From positions 1 through 49,338 of the forward strand of contig NZ_CAJXYK010000045.1 in NCBI RefSeq assembly GCF_913063425.1: 49,338 nt of DNA, given 5' to 3'. A program made the position numbers and the translations under genes. This document shows, piece by piece, positions 37,657-48,508 of the stretch (its first letter is position 1; every line of letters starts with the position of its first letter). Below the pieces are notes generated by a model, which saw only the letters and a program-made list of their open reading frames with translations, made no database searches and was not told the DNA's origin. This DNA comes from an uncultured Thiohalocapsa sp. (GTDB lineage: Bacteria; Pseudomonadota; Gammaproteobacteria; Chromatiales; Chromatiaceae).

Positions 37657-38718
37657 ATGCCGAGTAACGGACCAGACCAGTCGCAGCCGCAGTCCGCGGG
37701 CCAGGCCCGCCGTCGCGGCGGCAGTGCGGCCGGCACCGCCCCCGCCGCCCTGTTGCAGGCGCTGGACGAGCGCCCGGATGCGGAGCGCCTCAGCGAGGCG
37801 CTGGCCCACCGCCATTACCGCGTCGTCGCGCGTGCGGCCGAGGTCGCCGCCGATGGCCTGCACTATGCGCTGGAGCCTGCGCTGATGGATGCCTTCCGCC
37901 GCTTTGCGGCGCTGGATCACAAGCGGGACCCGGGCTGCCTGGCCAAGGGTGCCATCGCCCGCGCGCTGGTGGCCCTGGACTGCCTGGACGCGACCTTCTA
38001 CCGGGAGGGCATCGCGCTGCGTCAGCCGGAGCCCGTCTGGGGCGGCAGCGTCGACACCGCCGCGGACGTGCGCGCCAGCTGCGCTATGGGGCTTGCCGCC
38101 AGCGGCGACGCGGATGCGCTGGCGGACCTGGTGGATCTGCTGGTGGACCCTGAGCATCGGGTCCGCGCCGGCGCCGTCCGCGCCATCGGCTGCACCGAGC
38201 CGCGGGCCGCCGAGGCGGTGCTGCGTACCAAGGCCCTGCTCGGCGACGCGGAGCCGGAGGTCACCGGCGAGTGCTTCCGCAGCCTGCTCGGGCTGGCGCC
38301 GGAGACGGCACCGGCCTTCGTGGGCCGCTGGCTGGACGAGGCGCCGCCTTCGGACCCGGTGCTCGCGGAGCTGGCGGCCCTGGCCCTCGGCGAGTCCAAG
38401 CTCGATGCCGCCGTCGACCTGCTGCGCCGGCGCTGGGAGGCGGAGCCGCTGCGCAGTGACCGTGACCGGACTCTGCTGCGCGCCGCCGCCCTGGCGCGCA
38501 CGCCCCGGGCACTCGACTGGCTGACGACGCTCGCGGCGGACGCGGATGCGGGCACCGCGCGCCGGGTCATCGAGGAGCTCGGTGTGCACCGGGGCCACCG
38601 CCGCGTCGCGCAGGCGCTCCACGAGCGGCTGGCGCAGCGCGGCGATGCGGCCTTGCTCGCGGTCTTCGAGACGCACTTCGGCGGCGGGCGCGATGGCACC
38701 GGGGGCACGCGGACATGA
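37657..38718 (+). CDS. HEAT-repeat (PBS-lyase-like) protein coupled to the PYP ligase gene
   Basis: 353 residues, all helical and soluble. HEAT-like repeats are visible: DVRASCAMGLAASGDADALADLVDLL, then HRVRAGAVRAIGCTEPRAAEAVL, then PEVTGECFRSLLGLAPETAP and more toward the C-terminus (ARRVIEELGVHRGHRRVAQAL). Some HEAT-repeat proteins of the 'PBS lyase' type (CpcE/CpcF) attach or detach chromophores; others are plain scaffolds. The stop overlaps the ATG of the 4-coumarate:CoA-ligase-like gene (ATGA), so the two are made together. A role in chromophore handling for the PYP photoreceptor nearby is a hypothesis. The N-terminus (Gln/Ser/Arg-rich, about 25 residues) is disordered. Confidence 0.75.
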   Translation: MPSNGPDQSQPQSAGQARRRGGSAAGTAPAALLQALDERPDAERLSEALAHRHYRVVARAAEVAADGLHYALEPALMDAFRRFAALDHKRDPGCLAKGAIARALVALDCLDATFYREGIALRQPEPVWGGSVDTAADVRASCAMGLAASGDADALADLVDLLVDPEHRVRAGAVRAIGCTEPRAAEAVLRTKALLGDAEPEVTGECFRSLLGLAPETAPAFVGRWLDEAPPSDPVLAELAALALGESKLDAAVDLLRRRWEAEPLRSDRDRTLLRAAALARTPRALDWLTTLAADADAGTARRVIEELGVHRGHRRVAQALHERLAQRGDAALLAVFETHFGGGRDGTGGTRT

Positions 38719-39944
38719 GCCCGCACGATCCGCCGCTCGCCCCCTGGTGGCGACCGCGTTGGGTGCGCGCGGTGCTCGCGGACCTGTTGCGCGACGAGCT
38801 GCGCCGGCTGCGCCCGGGTGCCGTGCCCGCGGTGCCGTCTCCGGTGGTGTCGCCGGATGCCCCGGATGCTTCGAATGCCCCGGACTCCGGGGACCCACTG
38901 GCGGAGCTGGCACTCGACTCCATCGAGCTCCTCGACCTGGCCACGGCCGTGTCGCTGCGCTTCGGGCTGCACCACCATGACCTTGACCGGCGGCTGCTGG
39001 CCGAGCCGCGACTCGCCACCTGGGCCGAGACGGTCATCGAGGGGCGCTGCCGGGACGACGCATACATCGCGTTCTTCACCTCCGGCTCCACGGGCCGCCC
39101 GCAACGGTGCCCCCACGAGATGGCCGCGCTGGTGCAGGAGGTGACGCACTGGGCCGGGCAGCTGGGCACGCCGCGCCGCGTGCTGCGCGCCGTGCCCTGC
39201 CACCACATCTACGGCTTCCTGTTCACCGTGATGCTGCCGGCGCAGCTCGGCATCGACGTCATCGACGTGCGCGGGGCGCTCCCCGCCGGTGTCCTCGCCC
39301 GCACCGAGCCCGGGGATCTGCTGGTGGGGCACCCGGGCTTTTTTGCCCTGGCTGCCGCGGATGCCGGGGCCGCGGCGAATGTCCGTGCCGTCACCTCCAC
39401 GGGCCAGTGCCCGGACTTCGTCTGGGCGGCGTTGGCCGACGCCGGGGTGAGCCGGGTGCTGGAGGTTTACGGCAGCAGTGAATGCGCCGGTATCGGCAGC
39501 CGCTTGAGCGCTGCAGCGCCCTTCACGCTGCTGCCCTGGTGGATTCCCGAGCCTGGCCGGGCGCGTCTGCTGCGCACGCTGGGCGAGCCCTGCATCGCGC
39601 AGGACCGTTGGGAATGGGTGGATCGCCGCCGCTTTCGCGTGCACGGGCGCCTGGATGGGGCCGTGCAGGTGGCGGGCGAGAACGTCTTCCCGGGCCGGGT
39701 CCGGGACGTGCTGCTGACCCACCCGGCGGTGGCGGATGCGGCAGTGCGCCCCTTCGGCGAAGACGTTGCCGTCAGGTTGAAGGCCTTTGTGGTGCCCGCG
39801 GACCCGGATGCGGATGCGCTGGCGCTGCGCCGGGCACTCGACCCCTGGCTCGCGGCGCGGCTGCGCCCGGCGGAGCGCCCACGGCGCATCGACGTGGGCG
39901 CGAGCCTGCCGCAGACGCCCGCCGGCAAGCCGGCGGATTGGTGA
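38715..39944 (+). CDS. pcl: 4-coumarate:CoA ligase, photoactive-yellow-protein type (probable)
   Basis: A 409-residue AMP-forming ligase, shorter than usual acyl-CoA synthetases and near the roughly 390 residues of the PYP-activation family. The A3 loop is FFTSGSTGRPQRCPHE, followed by VPCHHIYGFLFTVMLP, TSTGQCPD, EVYGSSECAGIGSR (A5), GRLDGAVQVAGENVFP (A8) and PAGKPADW with the A10 Lys. HHIYGFLFT and GAVQV-G-NVFP are, as I recall them, features of the PYP-linked ligases. The N-terminus holds ELALDSIELLDLATAV, which resembles a carrier-protein Ser site (S69) but may just be the family's own N-terminal domain. Activating p-coumarate as CoA thioester for the PYP Cys of the nearby photoreceptor fits the context. 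No tyrosine ammonia-lyase is in the window. An aryl/acyl ligase of other specificity is the alternative. Confidence 0.72.
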   Translation: MSPHDPPLAPWWRPRWVRAVLADLLRDELRRLRPGAVPAVPSPVVSPDAPDASNAPDSGDPLAELALDSIELLDLATAVSLRFGLHHHDLDRRLLAEPRLATWAETVIEGRCRDDAYIAFFTSGSTGRPQRCPHEMAALVQEVTHWAGQLGTPRRVLRAVPCHHIYGFLFTVMLPAQLGIDVIDVRGALPAGVLARTEPGDLLVGHPGFFALAAADAGAAANVRAVTSTGQCPDFVWAALADAGVSRVLEVYGSSECAGIGSRLSAAAPFTLLPWWIPEPGRARLLRTLGEPCIAQDRWEWVDRRRFRVHGRLDGAVQVAGENVFPGRVRDVLLTHPAVADAAVRPFGEDVAVRLKAFVVPADPDADALALRRALDPWLAARLRPAERPRRIDVGASLPQTPAGKPADW

Positions 39945-40003: not shown

Positions 40004-40702
40004 TCAGTGTGCCTGCGCTGCCGCCCCGATCCGTATCTCCGGCAGCGGCTCCGGCGCGCCGTCGAGCTCGCGCACCACGGCCGTGTAGACCAGCCAGCCG
40101 CCCACATGCACTTCAGTGACCGACAGGGACAGGTCCACCTGCGTGCCGTCGCGCCGACGACCCGGTGCGCGGTGGCGGCCCACCAGCACCGGCGGCAGGC
40201 CGACATCCGGGTGCGCCTGCATCTCTGCCTCCAACCGCTCACGCAGGGGCGGCGGGAACAGCAGCGGGAAGGGCTGCCCCTTCAGCTCTGCGGCGCGAAA
40301 ACCGAAGATCCGCTCGGCGGCGGCGTTCATGCCCACCACCCGCCCGGCGGCGTCGACGTGGATGGCGCCGTCCAGCATGTTGTCAACGATGGCGCGATTG
40401 CGCGCGCGGCTCTCGGCATAGAGCGCCAGCCGACGCTCATAACGGGTCACGGTCCACAGGCAGAGCGCGCAGGCGGCGGCCACCGTGCCCAGGAGCAGCA
40501 GCAGAAAGGGCTCCAGCAGGGTCGCGGGGGGGAGCCACCAGAGCGTCGGCGCGGCTGCCGTGGCCTGCGCGAGGCCACCTGCGACCCCGAGTGCCCCGAC
40601 AGCGCCGGCCGCCAGCAGCACGGCGACGCCCGCTGCGACGAAATGGTAGAAGCGGAACCCGCCGGCGGAGGCCGCGAAGACGCTGGTGGATCTGTGTGTC
40701 AT
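40004..40702 (-). CDS. Membrane PAS-domain protein without output domain
   Basis: 232 residues. Two membrane segments near the N-terminus (HFVAAGVAVLLAAGAVGALGVAG and LLEPFLLLLLGTVAAACALCLWTV), then a cytoplasmic PAS domain (about residues 95-215) with NRAIVDNMLDGAIHVDAAGRVVGMNAAAERIFGF and LKGQPFPLLFPPPLRE, and ending YTAVVRELDGAPEPL. No kinase, GGDEF or other output follows; the stop is genuine. It is encoded 95 bp downstream of the PYP-phytochrome gene on the same strand, so may be cotranscribed and act as a partner sensor. The ATG at 40702 lacks a strong ribosome-binding site. PAS fold secure, role unknown. Confidence 0.75.
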   Translation of the reverse strand: MTHRSTSVFAASAGGFRFYHFVAAGVAVLLAAGAVGALGVAGGLAQATAAAPTLWWLPPATLLEPFLLLLLGTVAAACALCLWTVTRYERRLALYAESRARNRAIVDNMLDGAIHVDAAGRVVGMNAAAERIFGFRAAELKGQPFPLLFPPPLRERLEAEMQAHPDVGLPPVLVGRHRAPGRRRDGTQVDLSLSVTEVHVGGWLVYTAVVRELDGAPEPLPEIRIGAAAQAH

Positions 40703-40797: not shown

Positions 40798-43700
40798 TCA
40801 ACTGCGCCGGGCGGGGCGCCAGGCGCCGGTGCAGGCCTGCTCCGGCGTCAGGGGCTCGGACCACAGATAACCCTGGCCCCAGTCGCAGCCGAGGCGGCGC
40901 AGTATCTCCAGCTCGGTGATGCGCTCCACCCCTTCGGCCACCACCTGCTTGCCGAGCGAGTGGGCCATGGCCACCATGCCCGCCACCAGGCGCCGATCCT
41001 GCTCGCCGGTGACGCTGCGCACGAAGGCGCGGTCGATCTTGAGGGTGGAGATGTCGAGCTCGCGCAAATGCGCCATGGAGCTGAAGCCGCTGCCGAAGTC
41101 GTCGAGCGCGAGGCGGATGCCGCCGGCGCTGAGCTGGCGCAGGGACTCGCGCACACTCGGCGTCATGCGCAGCAGCACGGCTTCGGCAATCTCGATCTCC
41201 AGCCGCGCCGGGTCCACCGCGGCATCGGCGAGGGACTGCAACAGCGAGCGCGCGAACCAGCGCGCCTCCAGGTCCACCGCGGTGACATTGACAGCCAGCA
41301 GCATGCCCGCGCCGCCTTCGCGCTGGTGCTCGCGCAGCAGGCGCACCGTGCGCGTCAGCACCGCGTCGGTCACCGCGCGCAGCAGACCGTTCTGCTGCGC
41401 AGCGTCGATGAAGTCCAGCGGCTGCAGCAGCCGGCCGTCGGTGGTGCGCCAGCGCGCCAGCACCTCGAAGCGCGGCGCCGGGTGGTTGGCGGTGATGGGC
41501 ACCTGCGGCTGCAGCAGGATCTCCACGGCGCTGTCCGGGGAGCGGCCGAGGATCTCGCGTGCGATCTCAAGCCGGGCCAGGGCGCGCTGCTGCAGGCCGC
41601 TGTCGAAGGCGCGCACGCAGTTGCGTCCCGCGTCCTTGGCCTGGTAGAGGGCGAGGTCCGCCTGCTTCAGCAGCTCGGTGCCCTGGGAGCCGCCGTGGCC
41701 CAGGGTGACGCCGAGGGAGACGGTCACCGCGAACCGGTCGTCGCCGACGGCAATGGGGCCGTGGAAGGCCTGCACCACCCGCTGCGGCATGGCATCCAGG
41801 GCGTCCTCGTGGCCCATGGGCAGCAGCAGAGCGAACTCGTCGCCGCCGAGCCGTGCCACCACCGCGCCGTCCGGGAGTGCGGCGACGATGCGTTTGGCGG
41901 CGGCCGCGAGCAGCACGTCCCCCTTGTCGTGGCCCAGGGTGTCGTTGATGGTCTTGAAGTGGTCGATGTCCAGCAGACCGAGACCGAACATGGTCCCGCT
42001 GGCCTCGGCTTGATCGATGGTGGCGGCGAGGATCTGGCGGAAGCGCTCGCGGTTCGGTAGGCCGGTGAGGCCGTCGCGCAGCGCCAGCACCTCGAAGTGC
42101 GCGGCACTGCCGACGATCACTTCCTGGGTCAGGTTGCGCAGCGCCTCGGCGGTGCCGAGCTCGGCCTGGCTCCAGGGGCGGGCGTGGTGGGTGCGCTCTT
42201 CTTCCCAGGGCTCGAAGCGGCTGCCGCCCGCGTCGCTGCCGCCGGTTGCGGCGAGCGCCAGCGCGAGAGCCCCCGGCTGGGCGCCCCAGCGCACCTTCAG
42301 GCGTGTGCGCCGGCGGCCGACGAGGAGCACGTAGTCCTCGGCCGGGCCGATGAACACGGCAATCACGCCCGCGAGCCGCTGCGGATAGGCCGCCGCCGGT
42401 CCGAATAAGCACGATAGGCAGTCCGTGCTCCAGATGCCGCCGCCGTGTCCGCGCAGGAAGCCGAGCAGGGCGCGCTGCTCGGCCTCGTCGAGGGCGAGGC
42501 CGCCCGGGTCGAGCAGTGGCGTCTCGCCGTGGAAGATCTGCACCGCATCCGCGGCGAAGAGGCCGCGCAGCAGGGCCTCGTTGCCGATGAAGCCCTGCGG
42601 GAAGGGCTTGCGGATGTCCACGCGGCCGATGATGCCGTTGACCGCTGCCACGCCCTCCTGTCGGGCCTGCAGCTGGGCGCGCTCCTCCAGCAGCGCGACG
42701 CGTGCCGACACCAGCCCCGCCAGCTCCGCAAGCCGTCGGCGCAGCGCCACGGTGATGGGGTGGGGGCGGCGATGATGGCAGATCACCAGGCCCCAGAGCC
42801 GGCCGTCGCAGACGATGGAGAGCGTCAGGCTGCCGTTGACGCCCTGCTCCTCGAGGTAGGCACGGTGAATCGGCGACAGGGCGCGCAGCTGCGCGGCGCC
42901 GATGTCGATGTCCGTGGGCGCCCCCTCGGCTGCCAGCAGCGGTACCTCCACGTGGTCGCGGCTCGGCGCGTGGCGTAACGGGGTCTCTGCGTACAGGGCA
43001 CGGGCTTGGGCAGGGATATCGGAGGCGGCGTAGCGCAGCCCGAGCACAGAGGGCAGGGCGTCGGGGGCGCAGTCCTCGGCGATGACGATGCCGTCCCAGT
43101 CCGGGCTGAAGCGGTAGGCGAGCACGCGCTCGAAGCCGGTGAGCCGGCGCACTGCCCGGACCAGGCGCGCACAGAGCACCTCGATGTCGGGCTGCGCGAG
43201 CAGGTCCCGGCCGAGGGCGCCGAAGTCGAAGGCCGCGAGCTGCGCGTCCGCGGCCATGGGTGCATGCGGCTCGATCTCCAGCAGCAGCCGGCCGCGCCAG
43301 GGGGTGAGCCGCAGGTCGAGCGCCAGGTCTGGAACCCGCGGCTGGGGCGGGGCGCGGAAGGCCTGCGGGCAGAAGGTGTCCGGGTCTTCCCGTGCATCCT
43401 GCAGGCAGGCAGCGACGCCGCCGTCGCCGGCGGGCAGCAGGGTATCGATCGCGGCGCCGAGCACGGCCTCCGGGTGCAGGCCGAGGAAGCGCTCGGTGTT
43501 GGCGCCGGCGGCGATGACCCGCAGGCTGTCCGGCGCCAGCACCAGCAGGCAGCCGTAGGGCTGCAGCGCAGCGCAGTGCGCAATGGGCTCTTCGTCGCAG
43601 CGGGTCAGGTCCACGGAGACCGCGCTCAGCGCCGTGCCGTCGCCGACCGTCGCTTGCGGCGCTGCGGTCACGCCCGCTGCGGTCGCGACGGCGGCTGGTG

Positions 43701-44103
43701 CGGCGGCTGGGGCGGCGCGTTGCGGTAGCCGCTGCAGCGGCTCGACGATGATCCAGTACTCGCCGTCGCTCTGCGCATCGCGCATGTGGATACGCACCCG
43801 CACCGGGTGCATGTCGAAGTCGTAGACGAACTCGAAGGTGCTGGAGAGCTGGCCCGCCAGCACGCCCTGGCGGAAGCGGCCGTAGAACTCAGGCACCGCG
43901 GTGCAGGGGGCCACGTCGCGGAAGAAATTGCGCCCCAGCACCTCGTCCCGGACGCGGCCGGTGAGGCTCGCCTCGGTGCGGCTGTAGAACAGGATCTTGC
44001 CGTCGGCGTCCACGCGGATGGCGCCCACGGGCAGAGCGTCCAGCTCGGCCTCGGAGAGCGTGTCGAGCCGGCTGGGATCGTGGACGTCGATGTCGATCTT
44101 CAT
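40798..44103 (-). CDS. ppd: PYP-bacteriophytochrome-GGDEF-EAL photoreceptor (Ppd type)
   Basis: 1101 residues from the ATG at 44103 (an ATG at 44133 is also in frame). Residues 20-125 are a photoactive yellow protein domain: NFFRDVAPCTAVPEFYGRF carries the p-coumaroyl Cys (C67). Y40, E44, T48 and R50 match Y42, E46, T50 and R52 of PYP. An Ala-rich linker follows (126-160). The phytochrome core is PAS (biliverdin Cys C169 in LTRCDEEPIAHCAALQPYG), GAF (LGLRYAASDIPAQARALY; H413 in PIHRAYL) and PHY (to about 650). GGDEF (753-757) is intact, with no R-x-x-D inhibitory site before it. The EAL domain reads EVL at 880-882 but keeps NV, EIAE, DDFG, LKIDR and AEGVE. It should sense blue and red/far-red light and set c-di-GMP. 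Same architecture type as Ppd of Thermochromatium. Confidence 0.93.
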   Translation of the reverse strand: MKIDIDVHDPSRLDTLSEAELDALPVGAIRVDADGKILFYSRTEASLTGRVRDEVLGRNFFRDVAPCTAVPEFYGRFRQGVLAGQLSSTFEFVYDFDMHPVRVRIHMRDAQSDGEYWIIVEPLQRLPQRAAPAAAPAAVATAAGVTAAPQATVGDGTALSAVSVDLTRCDEEPIAHCAALQPYGCLLVLAPDSLRVIAAGANTERFLGLHPEAVLGAAIDTLLPAGDGGVAACLQDAREDPDTFCPQAFRAPPQPRVPDLALDLRLTPWRGRLLLEIEPHAPMAADAQLAAFDFGALGRDLLAQPDIEVLCARLVRAVRRLTGFERVLAYRFSPDWDGIVIAEDCAPDALPSVLGLRYAASDIPAQARALYAETPLRHAPSRDHVEVPLLAAEGAPTDIDIGAAQLRALSPIHRAYLEEQGVNGSLTLSIVCDGRLWGLVICHHRRPHPITVALRRRLAELAGLVSARVALLEERAQLQARQEGVAAVNGIIGRVDIRKPFPQGFIGNEALLRGLFAADAVQIFHGETPLLDPGGLALDEAEQRALLGFLRGHGGGIWSTDCLSCLFGPAAAYPQRLAGVIAVFIGPAEDYVLLVGRRRTRLKVRWGAQPGALALALAATGGSDAGGSRFEPWEEERTHHARPWSQAELGTAEALRNLTQEVIVGSAAHFEVLALRDGLTGLPNRERFRQILAATIDQAEASGTMFGLGLLDIDHFKTINDTLGHDKGDVLLAAAAKRIVAALPDGAVVARLGGDEFALLLPMGHEDALDAMPQRVVQAFHGPIAVGDDRFAVTVSLGVTLGHGGSQGTELLKQADLALYQAKDAGRNCVRAFDSGLQQRALARLEIAREILGRSPDSAVEILLQPQVPITANHPAPRFEVLARWRTTDGRLLQPLDFIDAAQQNGLLRAVTDAVLTRTVRLLREHQREGGAGMLLAVNVTAVDLEARWFARSLLQSLADAAVDPARLEIEIAEAVLLRMTPSVRESLRQLSAGGIRLALDDFGSGFSSMAHLRELDISTLKIDRAFVRSVTGEQDRRLVAGMVAMAHSLGKQVVAEGVERITELEILRRLGCDWGQGYLWSEPLTPEQACTGAWRPARRS

Positions 44104-44219
44104 AAGCTCGCTGCCGGGGGAGCTGCGATCCAAGCCGCCCGCAAGCTGGCCTTGGGACCGGCCGGCGCGGGCTGCGGCTCAGGCTGGGCGGTGGACCGCC
44201 TGGGCGCCCGGGTCTCGTG

Positions 44220-45140
44220 TCACGCCGGATCGTCGCGGGCGTTGAGGCGCCGCTGCGCCAGATGCAGCGCTGCCGAGTCGAGCCCGCCCTCGCCCTGGCC
44301 CACCAGGGCGTTCAGGAGCTGTGTCACCAGCGCCGTGCCGGGCAGGCCCAGCCCCAGCTCGTGAGCGGCCTCCTGGACGATGCGCATGTCCTTCTGGTGC
44401 AGGGCGGCCTTGAAGCCGGGCCGGTAGTCGCCCGCCAGCATGCGCTGACCGTGCACCTCCAGGATGCGGCTGCCGGCGAAGCCGCCGAGCAGCGCCTCGC
44501 GCACGCGGGCGCCGTCCACGCCGGCGGCCTCCGCGAGCAGCAGCGCCTCGCCGACGCCGGCGATGGTCTGGCCCACCACGATCTGATTGCAGGCCTTGCA
44601 GACCTGGCCCGCGCCGTGGTCGCCGATGTGCACCACTTGCCGGCCCATAACTTGGAACAGGGGCTTGACCCGGGCGAAGGCGTCGGCGGGCCCGCCCACC
44701 ATGATAGACAGGGTGCCGTCGCGGGCACCGATGTCGCCGCCTGAGACCGGGGCGTCCAGCATCTCCGCCCCGGCGGCACCGAGCGCTGCGGCGATGTCCC
44801 GGGTCACCGAGGGTGAGATGGTGCTCATGTCCACCACGATGCCGCCGGGGCGGATGCCCGCCAGCACCGCGCGCTCGCGCTGTGCGGCGTCGGCGTCGGC
44901 CCCGGTGCCGAGGACGACCTCCACCACATCCGGCGTATCCGCGAGCATGGTGAAGACGATGTCCGTCTCGCGCGCCACCTCGGCCGGGCTTGCGCAGGCG
45001 CGGGCACCCGCGTCGGTGAGGGGGGCGAGGGTCTCGGGCCGGCGGGCATAGACGGCGAGGTCGTGGCCTGCGGCGAGCAGATTCAGGGCCATGGGCCGGC
45101 CCATGATGCCGAGACCGATGAAACCGATGCGCGCTGTCAT
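44220..45140 (-). CDS. Tartronate-semialdehyde reductase family (2-hydroxy-3-oxopropionate reductase)
   Basis: 306 residues of the beta-hydroxyacid dehydrogenase family. The NAD(P) motif is GFIGLGIMGRPMALNLLAAGHDL, then the substrate-binding DAPVSGGDIGARDGTLSIMVGG, and the catalytic Lys in GQVCKACNQIVVGQTIAGVGEALLLAE. ALHQKDMRIVQEAAHELGLGLP is the C-terminal signature. This matches GarR/GlxR, which reduces tartronate semialdehyde to glycerate, although 3-hydroxyisobutyrate dehydrogenases are close relatives. Start at the ATG of MTARIGFIG, with GGAGAT upstream. It precedes ppd by 116 bp on the same strand and diverges from nrdD. Confidence 0.88.
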   Translation of the reverse strand: MTARIGFIGLGIMGRPMALNLLAAGHDLAVYARRPETLAPLTDAGARACASPAEVARETDIVFTMLADTPDVVEVVLGTGADADAAQRERAVLAGIRPGGIVVDMSTISPSVTRDIAAALGAAGAEMLDAPVSGGDIGARDGTLSIMVGGPADAFARVKPLFQVMGRQVVHIGDHGAGQVCKACNQIVVGQTIAGVGEALLLAEAAGVDGARVREALLGGFAGSRILEVHGQRMLAGDYRPGFKAALHQKDMRIVQEAAHELGLGLPGTALVTQLLNALVGQGEGGLDSAALHLAQRRLNARDDPA

Positions 45141-45405
45141 GAGGGGGTATCTCCGTCGCCGCGTGCGCGGCGGCTCGTATTGTGAGCCCGCGCCTGGGCG
45201 CATGCTGGCCCCATAGTTTACGCCGGCCTGAAGGCGGACGCGGTTGCAGCTTGACCGATGGCGTCCGGGCCGGCGCTGGCGGCGGGCGGGCGCATGCCGG
45301 GCGTCGGGCGGGCGGTGCGCGTGCGAGCCCTGTGCAAGTGTCTGAAGCGCCGGCATGCACGGCCTCGCCCGTGACCGGCATCAACCGTCTGTCGATCAGG
45401 GGCTT

Positions 45406-45478: not shown

Positions 45479-48400
45479 ATGGGCGCGGAAACCAAGACTT
45501 TGGCAGTGCTGCCGACGTGCGTCGCCAAGCGCGACGGCACCGAGGTGCCGTTCGACGCGGGCAGGATCGAATCCGCCATCCTGCGCGCCGGTCGCGCCAC
45601 GGGTGAATTCGACGAGCTGGAGGCGAAGCTGCTGACGGCGCAGGTGGTGAAGGTGCTGGCGCATCGCTATGGCCGCGCCGGCGCCGACGGACGGCGGTCC
45701 ATGCCGGACATCGAGGGCATCCAGGACGTGGTCGAGCAGACGTTGATCAGTGCCAACCACTTCGAGACCGCCCGCTCCTACATCGTCTACCGCGAGCAGC
45801 GCGCCAAGCTGCGCGCAGACCGCCGCACCCTGGTGGACGTGTCGAGCTCCATCAACGAGTACCTGGACCGCTCCGACTGGCGCGTGTCGGCCAACGCCAA
45901 CCAGGGCTACAGCCTGGGCGGGCTGATTCTGAACACCGCCGGCAAGATGGTCGCGAACTACTGGCTCTCCCATGTCTACCCGCCGCAGGTGGGCGAGGCG
46001 CACCGCAACGGCGATCTGCATATCCATGACCTTGACATGCTCGCCGGCTATTGCGCCGGCTGGTCCCTGCGCACCCTGCTGACGGAGGGCCTCAACGGTG
46101 TCCCCGGCAAGGTGGAGGCCGGCCCGCCCAAGCACATGTCGAGCGCGGTCGGACAGATCGTGAACTTCCTCGGCACACTCCAGAACGAATGGGCCGGCGC
46201 CCAGGCCTTCTCCAGCTTCGACACCTACATGGCGCCCTACGTGCGCATCGACCGGCTGCCCTACAAGCAGGTCAAGCAGTACATCCAGGAGCTGATCTAC
46301 AACCTGAATGTGCCGAGCCGCTGGGGTTGCCAGTGCGTCGACGCGGAGACCGAGTGCCTCACGGAGCATGGCTGGAAGCGCCACGACCAGATCGGCGAGG
46401 GCGAGCGCATCGCCACCTTCGATTGGCGGAAGAACCGCTTAGAGTACCTGGCGCCCTTGGCGATCACCGCCTACGACTTCGACGGCGACATGTACGTGCT
46501 GCGCAACCGCACCCAGGAGCAATGGGTGACGCCGCGGCACAAGGTCGTCCGCAAGGTCTTCAATTCCGAGAATCGCTGGATCCTGGAGGACATCGAAGAC
46601 GTCGCCAGGCTGCGCTCGCCGGTGATCGTGCCGAACGCCTGGGAGACGGCCTCCGAGATCGAGGTGGACGACAACCTGGTGATGCTGCTCGCCTGGGTGT
46701 TGGCGGAGGGCAACATCGACCGGCACGACGGCCGCCGTTGGGTCAGCCTGTGGCAATCCACCGGCAATCGCGAGTATGCCGCGGAGATCGAATGGCTGCT
46801 GACGGAGATGGGCCTCACCTGGCACGAGCGGCAGCAGACCGGCACCTACGCGAATCACCCCGTCTGCCGCTACCGTCTGAACAGCGAGGGCAGCGAGCTG
46901 GTGCTGCGCCATCTGGACCGCAAGTGCGTGCCGCCGCTGATCCGCACCTTGTCCGCGCGCCAGATCCGCCTGTTCCTGGACACCTACATCAAGGGTGACG
47001 GCAGCATCGAGGCGGACGGCCGGGCGCGCATCTACACCAAGGACCAGGACAACCTGGACGCCCTGCAGGAGCTGTGCGCGCTGGCAGGCTTCGGCAGCAC
47101 CGTGTATACGCGCAAGGACTCCGGCGTCCACGTGCTGAACATCATCCGCAATCGCGAGACCTACATCCAGCTCATCGAGCGCAAGCCCTATCGCGGCAAG
47201 GTCTGGTGCCCGACCACGCGCAACGGCACCTTCGTGGCCCGCCGCCGCGGCAAGGTGTTCATCACCGGCAATACACCGTTCACGAACCTGACCTTCGACT
47301 GGGTCTGCCCCGAAGACCTGCGCGATCAGGTTCCCGTCATCGGCGGCGAGGAGCAAGCCTTCACCTACGGCGAGCTCCAGGCCGAGATGGACATGATCAA
47401 CCGCGCCTACATCGAGGTGATGACCGAGGGCGACGCCAAGGGCCGGATCTTCACCTTCCCGATCCCGACCTACAACATCACGCCGGACTTCCCGTGGGAG
47501 AGCGAGAACGCGGAGCTGCTGTTCGCCATGACGGCCAAGTACGGGTTGCCGTACTTCCAGAACTTCATCAACTCCGAGCTCTCGCCCAACATGGTGCGCA
47601 GCATGTGCTGCCGGCTGCAGCTGGACCTGCGTGAGCTGCTGGCCCGCGGGAATGGGCTCTTCGGCTCGGCGGAGCAGACGGGCTCACTCGGCGTGGTCAC
47701 CATCAATTGCGCGCGTCTGGGCTTCACCCACGCCGGCGACGAGGCGGGCCTGCTGGCGCGCATCGAGGAGCTGATGGAGCTTGCGAAAAAGAGTCTGGAA
47801 TTGAAGCGCAAGGTCATCCAGCGGCACATGGACGCCGGATTGTTTCCCTACACCAAGCGCTACCTCGGCACCCTGCGCAATCACTTCAGCACCATTGGTG
47901 TCAACGGCATCAACGAGCTGATCCGCAACTTCACCGGTGACGCCGAGGACATCACCACCAGCTGGGGCCACGCCTTCGCAGCGCGGCTGCTGGACCACGT
48001 GCGCGCGCGCATGGTGCAGTTCCAGGAGGAAACGGGGCACATGTACAACCTGGAGGCGACCCCGGCGGAGGGGACCACCTACCGCTTCGCCCGCGAGGAC
48101 AAGAAGCGCTTCCCGGGCATCATCCAGGCCGGCACCGAGCAGGCGCCGTACTACACCAATTCGTCCCAACTGCCGGTGGGCTTCACCGACGACGCCTTCG
48201 AGGCGTTGGATGCCCAGCAGGAGCTGCAATCCAAATACACCGGCGGCACCGTGCTGCACCTCTACATGGGTGAGCAGGTCAGCTCAACCGATGCCTGCAA
48301 GCGCCTGGTGCGCCGCGCGCTCACCAATTTCCGCCTGCCCTACATCACCGTCACGCCCACCTTCTCCATCTGCCCGCACCACGGCTACATCGAGGGCGAG

Positions 48401-48508
48401 CACGAGTTCTGCCCCAAGTGCGATGCGGAGCTGATCGAAAAGAAACGGAGCGAGTTGCGAGAGGCGAGCGGTGAGGCTGAAGAGGTGCCGACCGCGCTGA
48501 TCGGTTGA
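45479..48508 (+). CDS. nrdD: Anaerobic ribonucleoside-triphosphate reductase, large part, with intein
   Basis: 1009 codons; 696 residues remain after removal of the intein (residues 286-598). The ATP-cone is at the N-terminus (CVAKRDGTEVPFDAGRIESAI). The reductase barrel has HIHDLDMLAGYCAGWSL, PSRWGCQ joined to TPFTNLTFDW after splicing, and the cysteine pair in NMVRSMCCRLQLDL, which probably holds the thiyl-radical Cys. The Zn site is SICPHHGYIEGEHEFCPKC near the end. The chain stops soon after (EVPTALIG) without the glycyl-radical motif; that domain is encoded by the next gene. AGGAG precedes the ATG. Makes dNTPs without oxygen. Confidence 0.93.
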   Translation: MGAETKTLAVLPTCVAKRDGTEVPFDAGRIESAILRAGRATGEFDELEAKLLTAQVVKVLAHRYGRAGADGRRSMPDIEGIQDVVEQTLISANHFETARSYIVYREQRAKLRADRRTLVDVSSSINEYLDRSDWRVSANANQGYSLGGLILNTAGKMVANYWLSHVYPPQVGEAHRNGDLHIHDLDMLAGYCAGWSLRTLLTEGLNGVPGKVEAGPPKHMSSAVGQIVNFLGTLQNEWAGAQAFSSFDTYMAPYVRIDRLPYKQVKQYIQELIYNLNVPSRWGCQCVDAETECLTEHGWKRHDQIGEGERIATFDWRKNRLEYLAPLAITAYDFDGDMYVLRNRTQEQWVTPRHKVVRKVFNSENRWILEDIEDVARLRSPVIVPNAWETASEIEVDDNLVMLLAWVLAEGNIDRHDGRRWVSLWQSTGNREYAAEIEWLLTEMGLTWHERQQTGTYANHPVCRYRLNSEGSELVLRHLDRKCVPPLIRTLSARQIRLFLDTYIKGDGSIEADGRARIYTKDQDNLDALQELCALAGFGSTVYTRKDSGVHVLNIIRNRETYIQLIERKPYRGKVWCPTTRNGTFVARRRGKVFITGNTPFTNLTFDWVCPEDLRDQVPVIGGEEQAFTYGELQAEMDMINRAYIEVMTEGDAKGRIFTFPIPTYNITPDFPWESENAELLFAMTAKYGLPYFQNFINSELSPNMVRSMCCRLQLDLRELLARGNGLFGSAEQTGSLGVVTINCARLGFTHAGDEAGLLARIEELMELAKKSLELKRKVIQRHMDAGLFPYTKRYLGTLRNHFSTIGVNGINELIRNFTGDAEDITTSWGHAFAARLLDHVRARMVQFQEETGHMYNLEATPAEGTTYRFAREDKKRFPGIIQAGTEQAPYYTNSSQLPVGFTDDAFEALDAQQELQSKYTGGTVLHLYMGEQVSSTDACKRLVRRALTNFRLPYITVTPTFSICPHHGYIEGEHEFCPKCDAELIEKKRSELREASGEAEEVPTALIG
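46334..47272 (+). mobile_element. Intein with LAGLIDADG-like homing endonuclease inside NrdD
   Basis: 313 in-frame codons, residues 286-598 of the precursor. It begins with Cys (CVDAETECLTEHGWK, splicing block A) and ends at Asn (GKVFITGN) followed by Thr of the C-extein. Block B is WVTPRHKVV (T-x-x-H). Block F is YRGKVWCPTTRNGTFVARRRG. The endonuclease motifs are LLAWVLAEGN (403-412) and LFLDTYIKGDGS (498-509), with the acidic residues present. The penultimate residue is Gly, not the common His, as in other inteins ending G-N. Splicing restores SRWGCQ-TPFTN, a highly conserved spot in this NrdD group. Confidence 0.92.

Follow-up and report, generated by a model that had tools for sequence, protein, structure and literature searches.

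The gene on the reverse strand at positions 40798-44103 of the window, by which is meant the whole 49,338-nucleotide stretch of DNA analysed (contig C45 of a 5.9-Mb genome), raises the question of whether one polypeptide carrying photoactive yellow protein (PYP), bacteriophytochrome, GGDEF and EAL domains can serve as a cyclic diguanylate (c-di-GMP) enzyme with two working photoreceptors, and by what route the chromophore of its PYP domain would be supplied. To judge from its sequence, the product is a real and intact member of a described family, Ppd, with domain and motif matches far beyond chance. The reading considered likely is that it is the Ppd of a purple sulfur bacterium of the Thiohalocapsa group, a two-photoreceptor c-di-GMP enzyme with a PYP domain loaded through a CoA ligase and a phytochrome that switches with red light. 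The features on which the argument draws are the following.

40798..44103, minus strand: ppd gene, PYP-PAS2-GAF-PHY-GGDEF-EAL, 1101 residues (Pfam, NCBIfam)
43729..44103, minus strand: PYP domain, residues 1-125 (Y40, E44, T48, R50 and C67 correspond to Y42, E46, T50, R52 and C69 of Halorhodospira halophila PYP)
43612..43728, minus strand: PYP-to-phytochrome linker, residues 126-164, rich in Ala and Pro (alignment, AlphaFold model)
42112..43611, minus strand: bacteriophytochrome, PAS2-GAF-PHY, residues 165-664 (biliverdin Cys169, DIP 362-364, His413, tongue GGSRF)
42076..42171, minus strand: PHY-to-GGDEF helix, residues 645-676 (shortened by 21 residues relative to Ppds that lie outside the six-member clade described below)
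41608..42084, minus strand: GGDEF domain, residues 674-832 (GGDEF 753-757, no RxxD I-site)
40852..41523, minus strand: EAL domain, residues 861-1084 (checked residues kept)
38715..39944, plus strand: PYP-activation-type p-coumarate:CoA ligase, candidate for loading PYP with its chromophore (TIGR02372, 283.1 bits)
40004..40702, minus strand: small PAS protein of 232 residues with a hydrophobic stretch near its N-terminus, directly 3' of ppd (Pfam)

The frame begins with ATG and is free of internal stops; a TTG at 44133 is an alternative start that would add ten residues, and the alignment of relatives begins at about the ATG. Pfam places PAS (residues 19-114), PAS_2 (169-226), GAF (306-465), PHY (501-664), GGDEF (674-828, E-value 5.5e-41) and EAL (861-1084, 3.1e-57) in that order, and NCBIfam matches BphP as well as the PYP model TIGR02373 (2.4e-39), the latter with 134.3 bits, below a curated cut-off of 143.05 that no more than 6 of the order's 210 genomes reach; low coverage of this model has been remarked (PMC9664959). 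The best solved match to the PYP domain is the PYP of Ppr, 1mzu (1.1e-35). The presence in one chain of an N-terminal PYP, a bacteriophytochrome, GGDEF and EAL, which an earlier note on this DNA had described and which Pfam and NCBIfam confirm, is the architecture of Ppd. The product is approximately 50-75% identical to 21 relatives over nearly its whole length and lies within a six-member clade with tree support of 100/100. Because the nearest named Ppds are those of Thiohalocapsa halophila (75% identity) and of Thiohalocapsa isolates (71-72%), and because the host genome has two tandem matches to the photosynthetic reaction-centre family Photo_RC, the host is taken to be a purple sulfur bacterium of the Thiohalocapsa group. 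A literature search found no report of a Thiohalocapsa Ppd in main texts, and supplementary files may list some. Among the 210 genomes of the order, strong PYP matches occur in 27 and Ppd in 24 of those; the earlier note named the right family and put its spread, “a few purple bacteria”, too low. PYP-PHY fusions have been described mainly in Methylobacteriaceae and Chromatiaceae, with 15 PYP-PHY-GGDEF/EAL and 37 PYP-PHY-kinase proteins counted (PMC12826048). In a survey reaching beyond the order, of 398 genomes of the phylum (E 1e-20), three of the 397 others gave a match; these loci were rejected as Ppd because their open frames of 900-910 residues are too short, and, as far as they were read, which is short of the output part, they are PYP-phytochrome loci with a canonical PRRSF tongue.

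Motifs were compared in 22 full-length Ppds, namely the present protein and 21 others. Left out were the Ppd of G006 (frame breaks), the Ppd L044 of G210 (PYP deleted) and that of Allochromatium warmingii (G106; L059/L072), in which residues 316-960 (the rest of GAF, PHY, GGDEF and the start of EAL) are gone and the remnants lie in two different frames, with the PYP Cys69 and an adjacent ligase retained; the tree and linker sets comprise 23 proteins, L044 having been added. The roles of residues in DrBphP and in H. halophila PYP and the spacing of the I-site are taken as general background, except where a paper is named. H. halophila PYP aligns without gaps at the constant offset of 2 that had been noted, and the residues expected of a p-coumarate-binding PYP, Cys69, Tyr42 and Glu46 in H. 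halophila numbering, are all present. Y40, E44, T48, R50, C67, C169, S361-P364, H413, GGDEF 753-757 and EVL 880-882 are likewise where the earlier note placed them, while its statement that every pocket residue is kept goes too far: eight of the nine residues listed in PMC12826048 match, Tyr94 stands in for F96, and two strongly conserved residues, F28 and N43, have given way to Val26 and Ser41. Position 46 is Glu in three of the 22 (the present protein, L065 and L086), Gln in 17, His in one and Leu in one; the fragmentary Ppds of A. warmingii and G006 have Cys69 and Gln46. The substitution E46Q has been tied to Ppd, with subfunctionalization suggested (PMC9664959), and the clade of the present Ppd holds exceptions to this link. 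Because position 50 is Thr, and six Thr50 PYPs absorb at 445 +/- 2.7 nm (PMC12826048), absorption is expected near 445 nm, not near the 430 nm of the earlier note.

The candidate for loading this domain is a short CoA ligase, the product of the gene at 38715-39944, which 853 bases separate from the 3' end of ppd; its best model of all is TIGR02372. Since none of the 210 genomes, the host included, reaches the curated cut-off of that model (334.7 bits), the function of the ligase is argued from co-occurrence. Best matches of at least 153 bits are found in 26 genomes, which are 25 of the 27 with PYP and one of the 183 without PYP; up to eight candidates per genome were scored, and all candidates were rescored in five genomes, including the ligase-less G153, G159 and G210. 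The ligase is also the commonest neighbour of ppd, being present in the retrieved stretch of 16 of the 23 Ppd loci of other genomes, from six genera (in one, L087, it is short and divergent); the next commonest neighbour is present in 7 of 23. The two PYP genomes that have no such ligase are G159 and T. halophila (G153). The T. halophila genome, with a listed completeness of 100%, retains the neighbourhood's HEAT gene and has no ligase, and its Ppd has Gln46 and Ala in place of Cys69. In L044 (PL23a_bin.8, G210), residues 39-166 approximately, comprising most of PYP and the linker, are deleted in frame, and no PYP-type ligase was found among all the rescored candidates of that genome (best TIGR02372 match 41.5 bits). 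T. halophila is sister to the present Ppd (100/100) and L044 is sister to L065 (100/100), and both sisters have an intact PYP and a ligase. PYP has been disabled twice independently, each time with absence of the ligase, and the phytochrome, GGDEF and EAL frames have stayed open. For ligase presence versus PYP integrity, the Fisher table (22, 1, 0, 2), which consists of 24 genomes of the order plus G210, gives p 0.01, a value that ignores relatedness.

PF00221 (aromatic ammonia lyase type) is absent from the host genome and from all 23 Ppd-only genomes, and is found in 5 of the 210 genomes of the order; in three of these five, PYP is a stand-alone protein encoded in a cluster with ligase and lyase (pyp-ligase-lyase), and G051, a fourth genome in which PYP stands alone, has the ligase and no lyase. 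TAL has been described as rare in pyp operons, with distant genes or uptake proposed (PMC12826048). Distant genes of the ammonia-lyase family were sought in the Ppd-only genomes and none was found; a literature search of main texts found no report of such genome-wide absence. In the host cell, p-coumarate probably does not come from an aromatic ammonia lyase. No clear candidate for a substitute for TAL was found among the recurrent neighbours of ppd, which besides the ligase are a shikimate-dehydrogenase-like gene (7 loci; genera g4 and g42), ALAD (5; g42), an NAD_binding_2 dehydrogenase (4; g4, g42) and a DUF2939 gene (4; g4, g42); none of these could be tied to p-coumarate synthesis. The dehydrogenase upstream of ppd in the window (44220-45356) belongs to the NAD_binding_2 family, is 28-30% identical to the dehydrogenases of that family near ppd in relatives, and has tartronate semialdehyde reductase as its best model. 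The shikimate-dehydrogenase-like gene, which is near ppd in 7 of 23 loci (e.g., L069 5741-6643) and is followed by an NAD_binding_2 dehydrogenase in four, is a possible lead for supply of an aromatic precursor. As for the other chromophore, 19 of the 24 genomes with a Ppd have a heme oxygenase match (PF01126); only in G049 and G055 is it no more than 2 kb from ppd, and the only one in the host is on contig C1, beside a second phytochrome. That phytochrome (PAS_2-GAF-PHY; L092 7620-9242, minus strand) has a stop in the matched stretch, and a third (L093 6481-10644, minus strand, contig C2) is part of a fusion protein that also contains several PAS domains, a histidine kinase and a receiver.

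The biliverdin Cys, the DIP motif and His413 are each present in all 22 Ppds. The tongue motif PRxSF, on which the earlier note was silent, is present in none of them: 15 have P-x-R-x-F, two (L086, L076) have P-R-x-x-F, and the present protein has GGSRF. Phytochrome position 444, the latter His of the HH pair in GAF, is occupied by Asn in L077, L079 and L083 and by Gln in L087, so that the tuning of those phytochromes may differ. On the output side, both the GGDEF signature and the stretch LDIDHFKTINDT, which binds metal, are preserved intact. The EVL triad and the missing RxxD I-site, to which the earlier note drew attention, are indeed present as described, and are shared by all 22 full-length Ppds; a cyclase free of product inhibition, as that note proposed, would be predicted from the motif. 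EXL is accepted as an intact EAL motif (PMC9587094), and E880, N939, E971, E974, D1001, D1002, K1022, E1057 and Q1077 are kept. These checked EAL residues are complete in 21 of the 22 Ppds. The sole case of change is L086 (G159, the genome that also has no ligase), in which D1002 of DDFG is Asn and G1006 is Ser, and because of these substitutions its phosphodiesterase is probably inactive.

The helix that joins PHY to GGDEF sets the clade apart. The stretch from the last Trp of the tongue up to the D of DxLT is 33 residues long in each of the six clade proteins and 54 in each of the 17 others, a difference of 21 residues, or three heptads; a length change is divisible by seven by chance in one case of seven. 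IsPadC (5llw), whose linker is of class +7, aligns with residues 312-830 (E 1.9e-64) and has 45 residues in the same stretch by this alignment, from which, counting as in PMC9587094, the clade is assigned a linker of -5 and the other Ppds +16, both equal to +2 modulo 7. Among PadCs of linker class +2 that have been characterised, one hardly responds to light, red light inhibits two, and one produced c-di-GMP in no measurable amount (PMC9587094). The comparison of heptad phase is an analogy, because PRxSF is absent and Ppds fall outside the definition of PadC; by that analogy, weak or inverted control of the cyclase by red light is to be expected, not strong activation, and a red-light-activated cyclase is not the best guess. 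The second half of the helix has low model confidence.

In the reading considered likely, a protein whose sequence preserves the sites where p-coumarate (Cys67) and biliverdin (Cys169) attach, together with a cyclase motif and an EAL site that are both intact, would work as follows. The neighbouring CoA ligase would activate p-coumarate, which would bind Cys67 to yield a PYP absorbing near 445 nm with Glu46 as the classical proton donor. Biliverdin, supplied via the single heme oxygenase match on contig C1, would be bound by the phytochrome, which is predicted to switch with red light and to signal its state through the helix between PHY and GGDEF, thereby setting how the making and breaking of c-di-GMP are balanced. 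PYP, as in Ppr, may alter the recovery of the phytochrome and not act directly on the enzymes, and red control of the cyclase would be weak or inverted with EAL activity contributing.

Several observations weigh against parts of this pathway. According to PMC8877833, interaction between the domains of Ppd has not been demonstrated. The linker stretch LPPRNE..A..LI..KF, conserved outside the clade, is lost in the present protein and an Ala/Pro-rich stretch takes its place, which may mean that PYP and phytochrome are weakly coupled; the AlphaFold model is mediocre (pLDDT 68.4), with confidence below 50 over PYP residues 44-72, linker-region residues 129-182 and helix residues 663-678. By rough NG86 estimates, the PYP of the present protein has a dN/dS of 0.36-0.44 in comparisons with three relatives, which lies inside the span shown by its other domains and is a point in favour of the reading. 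For the T. halophila PYP the value is 0.36-0.37; its dN, measured against L065 and L066, is larger than that of the present PYP by a factor of 1.3-1.5, with the PAS2-GAF part behaving much alike. Clear decay of the Cys69-less T. halophila PYP is not borne out by these values, and since it is not clearly relaxed a chromophore-free role is possible. If PYP were a structural or vestigial cap, so that the phytochrome-GGDEF-EAL part works alone and blue light has no effect, then the dN/dS of the T. halophila PYP, the low-confidence Ala/Pro-rich linker and the disabling or deletion of PYP twice in one clade with the remainder intact would all be accounted for; this explanation is nevertheless judged unlikely, though not strongly so, for a protein that keeps the attachment Cys, the rare Glu46, the ligase and eight of nine pocket residues. 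A somewhat stronger possibility, still short of even, is that the output is mainly phosphodiesterase, with GGDEF binding GTP to regulate EAL, and with c-di-GMP breakdown being what light sets. The near-universal retention of the checked EAL residues is consistent with this, and for PadC-EALs, which count odd lengths such as the present -5 among their linkers, a possibly greater importance of the EAL activity has been suggested (PMC9587094); however, with the GGDEF signature and LDIDHFKTINDT intact, cyclase activity would be expected, and L086 has the opposite pattern, GGDEF being kept and EAL carrying D1002N.

The ligase has difficulties of its own. Its score, like every other in the 210 genomes, is below the curated cut-off; the Lys of its P-loop is replaced by Gln; the line at 153 bits was set after the list had been seen; 32 further genomes have TIGR02372 matches of up to 128 bits, presumably other CoA ligases; G021 has a match of 204.9 bits (C22:27893-28810, L122) and no PYP match; and G159 keeps Cys69 with the ligase missing from its usual place in a genome that is 83% complete. 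The joint loss of ligase and PYP integrity might be a coincidence or a matter of missing contigs, the ligase serving some other pathway, given that, of the three genomes lacking the ligase, G159 is incomplete and G210 has no stated completeness, that there are just two independent contrasts behind the Fisher value, and that other genes recur near ppd too. The completeness of the T. halophila genome with its HEAT gene in place, the margin of the ligase over the next commonest neighbour across six genera, and its distribution between genomes with and without PYP make this explanation improbable. A more novel reading, thought quite unlikely, is that Ppd detects the coincidence of light with a phenolic from outside the cell: because the ligase is present and the ammonia lyase absent, the blue channel would be armed only upon uptake of p-coumarate from algae or plants. 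If true, Ppd would be a red-light c-di-GMP switch whenever p-coumarate is lacking, a state that T. halophila and PL23a_bin.8 would have made permanent through the joint loss of PYP function and ligase.

Communication between PYP and phytochrome in Ppd and the origin of the chromophore are open questions in print (PMC8877833; PMC12826048). The clade offers natural experiments on both, with sisters that differ in a working PYP, in the ligase, in Glu or Gln at position 46, and in a helix shorter by three heptads; the present Ppd and that of T. halophila are natural variants that could separate blue from red input. That the Ppd-only genomes searched have no ammonia lyase points to an unrecognised or external source of p-coumarate, and the joint loss, in relatives, of PYP and its presumed loading enzyme makes the chromophore supply line testable. 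On its sequence evidence, the overall interpretation of the earlier note is partly supported: the enzyme motifs are less exceptional than it held, and Glu46, the linker length and the co-loss of ligase and PYP are more interesting.

Two further genes of the window have features of their own. The small PAS protein (40004..40702) has no blastp match at E 1e-10 in the retrieved ppd loci of relatives. The anaerobic ribonucleotide reductase gene at 45479-48508 (plus strand) has an insert of approximately 300 residues with a LAGLIDADG-type domain, probably an intein; a similar long form is present in L065 (1051 residues), and the frames in T. halophila, L066 and L086 are of 696-735 residues.

Among known systems, the protein most resembles the Ppd of Thermochromatium tepidum and other Chromatiaceae, with which it shares the domain order, the biliverdin Cys, DIP, EVL and the absence of both the I-site and PRxSF; it differs from most Chromatiaceae Ppds in Glu46, in the helix shorter by 21 residues and in the unconserved linker before the phytochrome, and from T. 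tepidum Ppd in having Thr50 instead of Ala50 (PMC12826048). With Ppr of R. centenum and methylobacteria it has in common an N-terminal PYP fused to a bacteriophytochrome, the PYP of Ppr being its best solved match, whereas its output is GGDEF-EAL and that of Ppr is a histidine kinase. PadC and PadC-EAL proteins (IsPadC, 5llw) likewise join PAS-GAF-PHY by a helix to GGDEF (and EAL), and a linker of -5 has also been described for one PadC-EAL (PMC9587094). PRXSF in the PHY tongue is part of the definition of PadC-EAL (PMC9587094); the present protein has the biliverdin Cys, DIP, GGDEF and EXL of that definition, reads GGSRF in place of PRXSF, carries an added PYP, and has its -5 linker where IsPadC has +7. 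As in the pyp operon of H. halophila (pyp-pCL-TAL), PYP is accompanied by a TIGR02372-type ligase; unlike in H. halophila, the genome has no aromatic ammonia lyase.

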